Assembly (NCBI GenBank): GCA_936920195.1
Contig: CAKZHE010000116.1
Location: 1-35,298 of the forward strand
Source of the DNA: an uncultured cyanobacterium
Lineage (GTDB): Bacteria; Cyanobacteriota; Cyanobacteriia; Cyanobacteriales; FACHB-T130
DNA length: 35,298 nucleotides
Reading direction: 5' to 3'
This document shows positions 31,743 to 35,298 of the stretch, one piece after another. Position numbers and translations under genes: made by a program. Under the pieces are notes generated by a model. That model saw only the letters and a program-made list of their open reading frames with translations. It searched no databases and was not told the DNA's origin. Positions within the stretch are counted from its first letter, which is position 1; every line of letters starts with the position of its first letter.

Positions 31743-31860
31743 ATAGGGAATAGGGAACAGGGAACAGGGAACAGGGAACAGGGAACAGGGGGGAGAAAGG
31801 GAGAAAGGGAGAAAGGGAGAAAGGGAGAAAGGGAGAAAGGGAAGTGAACAGGGAATTGGG
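31743..31860. repeat. tandem GGGAACA and GGGAGAAA repeats
   Basis: Starting right after the ferritin-like stop, about five GGGAACA heptads are followed by about seven copies of an 8-base GGGAGAAA unit. Same family of low-complexity repeats as at 23105-23225. It lies between the convergent ferritin-like and gpsA genes. Confidence 0.85.
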
Positions 31861-32827: not shown

Positions 32828-32877
32828 AATAATTCAAAATTCAAAATTATCAATTCAAAATTGTTTTCTGAATTTTG

Positions 32878-32994
32878 ATATCATGTCCGATCGATTAGTT
32901 GTCATCCTGAGCAAAGCGAAGGATCTCGGAGATCCTTCGCTTTGCTCGGGATGACAAAAACCAGTTATCACAAGTGATTGAACGGACATGATAT
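32878..32994. repeat. MITE-like nested palindrome upstream of gpsA
   Basis: Outer inverted arms ATATCATGTCCG (32878-32889) and its complement (32983-32994) enclose a large palindrome of 29-base arms (32899-32927 and 32929-32957) with one mismatch. The inner arm (GTCATCCTGAGCAAAGCGAA...) resembles a hairpin family I recall from many bacterial genomes. No coding capacity. AT-rich AATTCAAAATT repeats (32831-32877) lie between it and gpsA. Confidence 0.8.
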
Positions 32995-33001
32995 GAATTC
33001 A

Positions 33002-33220: not shown

Positions 33221-33326
33221 ACTCGTTATCCTCAAACAGTTTTAACTAAGGAATAGGAATGGAAGGAATTGAACAAGCTACCAATTTCGTATTCTACTGC
33301 TAAACCCCACCATTCCCTATTCCCCA

Positions 33327-33395
33327 TTCCCCATTCCTTACCTGTTCCCTGTTCCCTGTTCCCTGTTCCCTATTCCTGTTCCCTGTTCCCTATCC
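33327..33395. repeat. CCCTGTT/CCCTATT heptad repeats
   Basis: Tandem heptads CCCTGTT and CCCTATT, the complement of the G-rich tracts at 23105-23225 and 31743-31860. They fill most of the gap between the small membrane protein and the transposon end. Confidence 0.8.
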
Positions 33396-33424
33396 CGACG
33401 ATTTTACCAAAAAACTGGGTGTAG

Positions 33425-33556
33425 CGCCCCGTCCTTCTAGGACGGCTTTCTGATAGAATGTTGGAAGCAGGCAGGGCATTGTCTGTTGGGCGAGATAGTG
33501 TAAGACGAGGCTCTGCCTGCAACTGTTGTTTGAACCCAGAATCCCCGCACTTTTAG
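33425..33556 (+). pseudogene. 3' remnant of an IS200/IS605-family tnpB gene
   Basis: A 43-codon frame, preceded directly by a stop, reads RMLEAGRALSVGRDSVRRGS, then ACNCCLNPESPHF and a TAG at 33554-33556 inside the right-end hairpin. TnpB proteins of cyanobacterial IS200/IS605 elements often end in a Cys/Ser-rich tail reading ESP just inside the right end. Nothing of the nuclease domain remains. Assignment rests on the tail pattern plus the hairpin and terminus described next, so it is moderately sure. Confidence 0.55.
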
Positions 33557-33573
33557 GGCGGGGAGTATGTCAA
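33543..33573 (+). mobile_element. IS200/IS605-type right end
   Basis: Hairpin stem CCCCGC (33543-33548) with GCGGGG (33558-33563), then AGTATGTCAA ending at 33573. This hairpin-plus-terminus resembles the right ends of cyanobacterial IS200/IS605 elements, which have subterminal hairpins and no inverted ends. The same terminus occurs on the opposite strand at 35165-35174. In intact elements the segment also forms the 3' part of the TnpB guide (omega) RNA. Confidence 0.6.
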
Positions 33574-34998
33574 CTGCATCACGACCAAAGTCATATCATC
33601 GCCGTTTTGGTTGGCTTCGCCAATAAACTGCTGTACCTGCTCGAACAGGTATTCTAAAATCGCTTGGGGATTTGGGCAATGCTCGCACGCCCATTGGAAG
33701 GCAGTGCTGAGATTATCCTCGTCAAAGCGATCGCCGTTTTTATTGGCAGCGTCGGTAAACCCATCAGTAAAATAGATAATCGTATCCCCACTTGCTAGCT
33801 GAATTTGGGCATCCTCATAGTGGGAATCCGCATCTAAACCAATCAGCATTCCCAAGGTATCCAACCGTTGAATTGAACGGTTGGCGGCTTGCCACAGTAA
33901 AGGCGGGTGATGAGCAGCATTGCTGTATGAGAGCAGCCGCGTTTTGGGGTCATACTCAGAATAAAACAAAGTGACGAACCGATGGGAATTTTCCAAATCG
34001 GCATACATGACTCGGTTTAAGTGTTGCAGAATTTTGGCGGGAGAGTGACCATTGAGAACTTCGGCTCGGAGCATTCCCCTCGTCATGGTCATAATTAAAC
34101 CAGCGGGAACACCTTTGCCCATCACATCCCCGATTACCACGCTCCACCGCCCAGTATCGGCGGAATCGGGGTCGTTTTTCTGGGATTTAACTTGATCGTA
34201 GCTGGCGGAAATAAAATCGTAATAATCTCCTCCCACCCGGCTAGCCGTTTGGCAGCAAGCCGCTAATTCCACCCCAGCAATTTGGGGACATTGGCGGGGG
34301 AGCAGCCGTTGTTGGATATCTGCGCCAATTTCCAATTCTCGGTCAAGACGTTCTTTTTTACGTAATTCTACGGTTAATTCGTCGTTGGCGATCGCTACTG
34401 CGGTTTGATCTGCCACTAAGCGAACTAATTTTTGTTTGGTTTCTGTCCAAGTGTATTCCGGATCGCGGCTAAAAATATAGAGTCTGCCCCGTTCCGAATT
34501 TTTCATTAAAATTGGCGTGGCAAAAAACTGCATTTCTGTCCCTAGGGAACTAACCACCTGTTCGTCTAGAGAGGCTAAAGTTGATTCTACGGGGATAACC
34601 GTGGTGGCAATTACTTCACTGGGATGATGGCGCACGCTTAGTTGTCGCAATGCTATTTCTAAGGCTTGGCGAATTTGTTGACTCTTTTGAGTTTCTTGGC
34701 AGTAGAGTCTTTCTAACCTCATTTGACCATTGGGCTTGCAGAGGATCAAGGCACTGCCATCGGCATCGCTGACTCGCGTTGCCATTAGGGGAATCAGTTC
34801 CAGAAACTGATTCAAATTGTTGAAACTGCGGAGGGCAAAACCCAAAGAACTGAGCAAATCTTGAATTTTATTTTGTTCGCGATGCAATCGCGCCACCAAT
34901 TCTTTGAGTGCTGCCACTGGGGTTACATCTATGGGAGAAGTACCGCTGTTAATGTCTGGCGATTTAGAGGATTTGCGGGGGAGAGGCACAGCCGTCAT
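33553..34998 (-). CDS. GAF-SpoIIE (PP2C-like) serine phosphatase
   Basis: 481 residues. N-terminal disordered stretch, coiled coil about 28-50, GAF domain about 55-205, helical linker about 206-235, then the SpoIIE/RsbU-type phosphatase about 240-477. Metal-binding motifs are present: VGGDYYDF (255-262), GDVMGKG (290-296), TDGFTDA (411-417) and GDDMT (466-470). It would dephosphorylate a serine/threonine phosphoprotein, such as an anti-sigma-factor antagonist, in response to a GAF ligand; no such partner is nearby. The last six residues (LTYSPP) and the stop are encoded by the right end of a transposon (33553-33573), so the native 3' end was replaced or shortened at most by a few residues. 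The catalytic motifs are intact, so it is probably active. Confidence 0.92.
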   Translation of the reverse strand: MTAVPLPRKSSKSPDINSGTSPIDVTPVAALKELVARLHREQNKIQDLLSSLGFALRSFNNLNQFLELIPLMATRVSDADGSALILCKPNGQMRLERLYCQETQKSQQIRQALEIALRQLSVRHHPSEVIATTVIPVESTLASLDEQVVSSLGTEMQFFATPILMKNSERGRLYIFSRDPEYTWTETKQKLVRLVADQTAVAIANDELTVELRKKERLDRELEIGADIQQRLLPRQCPQIAGVELAACCQTASRVGGDYYDFISASYDQVKSQKNDPDSADTGRWSVVIGDVMGKGVPAGLIMTMTRGMLRAEVLNGHSPAKILQHLNRVMYADLENSHRFVTLFYSEYDPKTRLLSYSNAAHHPPLLWQAANRSIQRLDTLGMLIGLDADSHYEDAQIQLASGDTIIYFTDGFTDAANKNGDRFDEDNLSTAFQWACEHCPNPQAILEYLFEQVQQFIGEANQNGDDMTLVVMQLTYSPP

Positions 34999-35103: not shown

Positions 35104-35298
35104 CTATTTCCAAAGAATTAGAGGCGATATTTGATCTGAACTGCGCTGTCTTGAGCTATGAGGTTTGACATACTCACCAGGCTGAAGCCACGGGGAAACA
35201 CTTGACGCTTCACTGACTGACGCTACCGAGGTAGTCTTACTCTGTCTCTGCGTCCGTTTAGAGTCGTGGCAATGCCCTATCCCGACTTTTTCTATATT
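35104..35298 (-). pseudogene. possible 3' end of a second IS200/IS605 tnpB, cut by the window edge
   Basis: An open frame enters from the window edge: KVGIGHCHDSKRTQRQSKTT, then SVASVSEASSVSPWLQPGEY, and runs through the presumed transposon end at 35165 to a stop at 35104-35106. SP lies at the same phase and position relative to the hairpin as in the remnant at 33425-33556, and the tail style fits cyanobacterial TnpB proteins. The body of the gene, if any, lies beyond the window. It may be a full element or another relic. Confidence 0.45.
35165..35298 (-). mobile_element. second IS200/IS605-type right end, running off the window
   Basis: On the minus strand, CCCCGTGG-CTTCAG-CC(T)GG(T)G followed by AGTATGTCAA (35165-35174 in complement) is a slightly decayed version of the hairpin-plus-terminus expected for this family. 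The element would extend to the right past the window. The 35000-35160 stretch between it and the phosphatase start has no other recognised feature. Confidence 0.5.

Follow-up and report, generated by a model that had tools for sequence, protein, structure and literature searches.

The window, which is the whole of contig C116 (35,298 bp) in a 5.7-Mb draft genome of 326 contigs, carries on its minus strand a gene for a SpoIIE/PP2C-type phosphatase of 481 amino acids (33553–34998). The SpoIIE domain (Pfam PF07228) is present at residues 282–476, with a score of 193.1 bits (E = 6.2e-57) and a match to profile positions 2–191 of 192. The protein now ends in ...DDMTLVVMQ-LTYSPP, and the final 21 nt of its gene, TTG ACA TAC TCC CCG CCC TAA (33553–33573, minus strand), lie inside the right end of a non-autonomous IS200/IS605-type element, a MITE of 166 nt that extends from left to right end over 33408–33573 on the plus strand. 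The last six phosphatase codons and the stop codon derive from this element, as judged from the sequence and from comparison with orthologues. The sequence-only reading of this DNA had already attributed them to a transposon end, and the open reading frame at 33553–34998 does close inside a right end that terminates in TCAA. That reading placed the feature at 33543–33573, which locates the right end correctly but falls short of the true unit, the whole element; the assignment to IS200/IS605 held, but what had been taken for a right end is more than a scar, being a MITE that has both its ends and, next to the left one, a TTAC target.

The boundaries of the element are defined by its copies elsewhere in the genome. 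A TTAC target (33404–33407) abuts the left end, recognized from the sequence, the flanks of sister copies and the likeness to IS608. Imperfect subterminal hairpins are found at both ends. The left-end hairpin, CCGTCCTTCTAGGACGG (33429–33445), was picked up by a terminator-type scan and is common to sister copies, and the right-end hairpin (33542–33564) is defined by folding and by a right-end alignment. The element closes with TCAA (33570–33573), the right cleavage-site sequence by likeness to IS608, which reads TTGA on the minus strand. All members of the family found by similarity, the window copy and its sisters alike, end in TCAA; sites picked by pattern contain this motif by construction and are not counted as support. 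GAAT lies directly before the right-end hairpin, and the left-guide position holds AAAG in sister copies (TATAAAGCCCC) and AGCG in the window copy and in the longer copies on C28 and C193. A tnpB C-terminal remnant of about 19 codons plus TAG (SVRRGSACNCCLNPESPHF, then the stop) occupies 33497–33556 on the plus strand, as identified by eye against the ending NVRRTDVRNCCLSLESPCL-stop of C28. Its TAG (33554–33556) and the minus-strand TAA of the phosphatase (33553–33555) have two bases in common, at the apex of the right-end hairpin, as had been claimed from the sequence. The element, at 166 nt, has no room for a Y1 (HUH) transposase gene and is thus classed as a non-autonomous derivative, not an autonomous IS; no Y1 match was found in contig C116.

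Full-length copies of the 166-nt element are present on contigs C231 and C99, both at 93% identity. A third copy, on C276, has its left end interrupted by an insertion and is 97% identical over positions 26–166; the ends of contigs C275 and C190 carry partial copies. TTTAC flanks the copies on C231, C99, C275 and C276. At the 12 sites that combine the window's right-end type with a left-end match at E 0.01 or better, TTAC stands at the computed place in 11, and the twelfth, the C276 copy with its split left end, shows TTTAC. The last 60–80 nt of the element match the 3' end of longer, tnpB-bearing copies. In five of the ten longer copies compared (C28, C138, C233, C254 and C305) the tnpB frame runs to the same hairpin TAG, which bears out the earlier identification of the plus-strand TAG as the tnpB stop. 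The frame reaches TAG in C228 in a degenerate reading, stops earlier in C87 and C193, and meets an apex without a stop in C71 and C174. It ends in LESPCL-stop in tnpB-bearing copies, compared with NPESPHF-stop in the window element. By sequence comparison, the element is a MITE that descends from a tnpB-bearing IS200/IS605 element or is related to one; the sequence-only reading's "tnpB-like remnant" was right about origin, but the unit is better described as a copy of a 166-nt MITE family. The genome has ten Y1 matches (PF01797), nine to part of the domain (some with an internal stop or at contig ends) and one near full length but borderline; none is tied to the element.

Two further groups of ends were observed in the same genome. 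The right ends on C281 (L014) and C282 (L015) carry the hairpin apex in inverted orientation compared with the window copy (CCCTAAAAGTGC versus GCACTTTTAGGG), and element query positions 138–160 match there on the opposite strand at 100%. An apparent second MITE family, of 167–169 nt, is marked by GAGGAGTATGTCAA right ends and by TTAC preceding the left end; its members are on C29, C130, C218, C265 (position 17768) and C278 (position 16046), with weak left-end matches for C29 and C218.

We considered what the right-end hairpin does at its present position. As single-stranded DNA it folds strongly (39 nt, −11 kcal/mol, z −4.3, with none of 200 shuffles as good), as expected for a transposase recognition site. 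The sequence-only reading had proposed that it may also serve as a terminator, and this found no support. No T-run follows the hairpin on either strand, and a scan of 33300–33800 gave no terminator-like match on the phosphatase strand, its single match being the left-end hairpin on the plus strand. As minus-strand RNA the right-end stretch is unexceptional, with z −1.1 and 27 of 200 shuffles as good. The same results bear on the broader idea that the phosphatase gene has taken over the element as its functional 3' end, as terminator or mRNA stabilizer, and that selection keeps it there. A GC-rich hairpin does sit at the very 3' end of the coding sequence, and the IS605 stem loops at Borrelia lipoprotein gene ends are reported as conserved (PMC2775950); against this stand the lack of a T-run or phosphatase-strand terminator match and the ordinary stability of the RNA, and the insertion is known from a single genome, too few to judge conservation by. 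We regard such recruitment as unlikely. The most apt reading of the hairpin is a transposition signal within which a stop happens to fall. The two convergent frames do share overlapping stops, as first described, but no second gene meets the phosphatase here, the plus-strand frame being the remnant of about 19 codons.

The sequence displaced by the element can be read on its far side. Joining the two flanks gives CAG GTA AAA TCG TCG GGA TAG, so that the phosphatase would end ...VMQ-VKSSG-stop at 480 amino acids, and the stranded ancestral 3' end, GTAAAATCGTCGGGATAG, encoding VKSSG and a stop, lies at 33390–33407 on the minus strand. The join restores an in-frame, family-like tail with no extra base, and there is no target-site duplication. 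VMQ-VKSSG is a typical ending of the orthologue type (VMQVKS, VMQVKSSE and similar). We compared both versions of the protein with 85 orthologous loci, comprising five from a search of family genomes and the best 80 of 393 from a scan of genome contigs; the 80 named loci from the scan are all labelled cyanobacteria. At least one pair among the 85 (L031 and L046) looks like a single record, and two loci with alignment gaps near the end (L058 and L090) are still counted. Eighty of the 85 loci score higher with the joined protein and five with the present tail. The first 8 nt of the stranded tail, GTAAAATC, occur at the same codons in eight of the 85. The empty site is a reconstruction from the flanks rather than a direct sighting: the search within the genus, which covered only the window's own genome, gave no conspecific strain without the element, and the nearest orthologue found shares 78% identity.

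These comparisons also bear on whether the junction is real. The draft consists of 326 contigs, several of which end in repeats of the element's type, and a false join at a repeated element is conceivable on that account. The left flank, however, carries an in-frame tail typical of the phosphatase gene family, and because both flanks fit each other in frame we consider an assembly artefact very improbable. The notion that LTYSPP is simply the native tail, its likeness to a transposon end a coincidence, can draw on the variability of orthologue tails and on residue 476, which is V, I, M, A or L in all 85 loci and L here, but it is hardly credible given that none of the 85 loci has the tail, that the element recurs in the genome and that a family-like tail lies at the other flank. 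Neither an LTYSPP ending nor TYSP in the tail occurs at any of the 85 orthologous loci, so that orthologues without the element end differently, as the sequence-only reading required. The borrowed tail is no chance likeness, since the 166-nt unit recurs in the genome and the tail is absent from all 85 loci.

We therefore favour, with a probability of about 0.95 for the account as a whole, a MITE insertion at TTAC that replaced the phosphatase tail VKSSG by LTYSPP. In the event that we propose, a Y1 transposase would have moved the 166-nt non-autonomous element in trans, and the element would have inserted without target duplication 3' of TTAC, opposite phosphatase codons Val476–Lys477. The right end of the element faces the phosphatase gene, and translation now runs 21 nt into the element; LTYSPP and the TAA in the hairpin apex replace the native VKSSG and TAG, and the latter are left stranded on the far side of 166 nt. 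Survival of the insertion would be explained by two things: the residues lost come from a part that is variable in orthologues, past the final strand of the domain, and the right end closes the phosphatase frame with a stop after six codons. In an AlphaFold2 model (29 sequences, mean pLDDT 79.2) the last predicted strand comprises residues 469–476 and is followed by coil. Val476 is replaced by Leu in the present phosphatase; the residue at this position is V in 57 of the 85 loci, I in 21, M in three, A in two and L in two, and beyond residue 475 the orthologues have between 2 and 20 further residues. As the domain match and the last predicted strand both stop at residue 476 and orthologue tails vary, the tail change is probably close to neutral for the phosphatase.

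Several other repeats lie near the gene. A second, different IS200/IS605-like right end (GGTGAGTATGTCAA) is present upstream of the phosphatase on the minus strand (35165–35298), where it is cut by the contig end; it is 89–98% identical over all 134 nt to five other copies, among seven loci compared. The phosphatase gene is bracketed by these two inward-pointing right ends. Nested inverted repeats occupy 32875–32997, with inner arms of 29 nt (32899–32927 and 32929–32957, 97% complementary) and outer arms of 31 nt (32875–32905 and 32967–32997, 81%). Short tandem repeats of the GGGAACA and GAGAAAGG type were seen by eye at approximately 31744–31845 and at 33340–33396, the latter array lying immediately downstream of the native phosphatase stop left stranded there.

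The right end also has a candidate RNA structure. When 18 right ends are aligned, a helix lying on the upstream side of the terminal hairpin is seen to be kept through two-sided changes at two of its six pairs, with four distinct sequences at each, and slid versions of this helix pair far worse. Three of five measures, including the covariation score and the number of cells paired, beat all 500 shuffles, while the two-sided pair count was reached by 87 of 500 shuffles and the number of pair types by 376 of 500; the structure was derived from the same 18-sequence alignment used to score it, and a single inherited change would suffice to produce the counts. A search of the window against Rfam gave nothing at gathering scores. 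In ISDra2, the tnpB 3' end and the right end yield a guide RNA (PMC8612924), and on this precedent the MITE lineage may keep a guide-RNA-like fold. What links the MITE to the ISDra2 TnpB/reRNA system is that it retains some of the right-end structure seen in the tnpB copies; a transcript of the MITE, or a use for one, would be hypothetical.

We next consider how the right ends of this element type relate to the stop codons of convergent genes. The right-end-like sites listed in the genome number 63, of which 37 have the TTAC-type end, and 33 of these were kept by the rule that the stem have at least five pairs (C84, C85, C242 and C269 were dropped). For a gene running into such an end, in convergent frame 2 a TGA is met 4 nt in at all 33 sites, which is imposed by TCAA in the search pattern. 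In frame 1 a stop lies at 21 nt in 24 of the 33, and in frame 3 the stop is most often at 38 nt (14 of 33). Three of the 33 sites, on C116, C265 (position 17768) and C281, lie within a convergent ORF of at least 80 codons in frame 1 or 3. Among the 30 other sites, six have a convergent ORF of at least 80 codons that ends at T-TGA: those on C7 (Uma2, L115), C71 (DUF305, L118), C254 (YGGT, L138), C180 (a DHHA1 match below cut-off, L290, ending at C180:5731), C185 (L130) and C120 (L126), with no Pfam match for the last two. One further case concerns another right-end type (GGGGAGGATGTCAA): at C54:64–77 (L189) a Uma2-family gene reads in frame 3 into this end and gains approximately 17 residues, ending ARGFLNLTI.

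The count of six in 30 compares with 27 in 436 for non-interior TTAC sites over 435 kb of this genome (p = 0.009). That null is rough, with ORFs called by a crude rule, and selection removes insertions that fall inside genes. The C7 ORF would natively stop one codon earlier if its target were TTAC, and without it the count is five of 29 (p = 0.03). Other genomes contributed at least 39 sites, 38 of them with the TTAC-type end, of which 30 were kept and eight dropped by the stem rule; three of 26 are at the stop of a putative gene (p = 0.22). Pooled, nine of 56 sites are at a stop (p = 0.007), or eight of 55 without C7 (p = 0.02). The excess of TTAC-type right ends at convergent stop codons is suggestive, not established. 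If the target was TTAC, the six at-stop ORFs are possibly insertions at native stops that changed NNG-TAA to NNT-TGA. No credible left end was found for any of the six, with 282 nt examined for C254 and approximately 1.5 kb for each of the rest; their TTAC target is therefore an assumption based on other copies. For C180, an orthologue at threshold was found in one of five other family genomes (G001); it has the same last residues, INADG, and ends GGT-TAA, which does not confirm a GGG-TAA ancestor, and the C180 insertion was possibly a silent one at the stop codon. For C185, the alignment extends to residue 220 of 223 in three of five family orthologues (L295–L297), whose own ends are only a few residues away, and the other two (L293 and L294) end earlier.

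A tentative generalization is that TTAC/TCAA-type IS200/IS605 ends act as built-in stop menders and so collect near-silently at the 3' ends of convergent genes. TTAC is GTAA on the opposite strand, where the right end reads TTGA; an insertion would then rewrite an NNG-TAA stop as NNT-TGA at the same position and leave the protein nearly unchanged, and frames other than the stop frame would usually be closed some codons on. We hold this to be doubtful, the more so as no left end displaying the target was seen in any of the six at-stop cases. The stops that such ends offer to convergent genes may help explain why TTAC-type elements are tolerated at gene ends. On the stop-mender view, any RNA made from the MITE would also carry a guide that is antisense to the 3' end of its host gene. 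No description of stop restoration by TTAC/TCAA ends was found among titles and abstract openings of the open-licence literature.

A close parallel is IS608, which is described as inserting 3' of TTAC, with a right cleavage site TCAA and the guides GAAT on the right and AAAG on the left (PMC5934647). The window element resembles it in the TTAC 5' of the element, the TCAA end, the hairpins at both ends, the GAAT and the lack of target duplication; it differs in being 166 nt long without tnpA, in having only approximately 19 codons from the 3' end of tnpB and in carrying AGCG for AAAG (PMC5934647). Insertion at the end of a gene, as seen in the phosphatase, is already known from Borrelia IS605 and the Coxiella QMITEs. 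Coxiella QMITE1 and QMITE2 overlap gene 3' ends and supply C-terminal residues, and the likeness is that a miniature element donates the end of a protein; the main text of that paper does not contain the word IS605, and the two are likened by the described effect and not by element sequence (PMC5896051). In Borrelia, IS605B stem loops lie at the ends of lipoprotein genes and 8 nt form the last coding nucleotides, so that there, as here, an IS605 end provides the last coding nucleotides of a host gene (PMC2775950). The Borrelia sequences are described as a left-end stem loop with a short adjacent sequence, whereas the cyanobacterial element is complete and two-ended and is read from its right end, and, unlike in Borrelia, the ancestral tail is still present beside it (PMC2775950). 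This locus is a clean example of a mini-transposon rewriting a protein C-terminus: a single sequence displays both tails, borrowed and lost, together with the target and the limits of the element.
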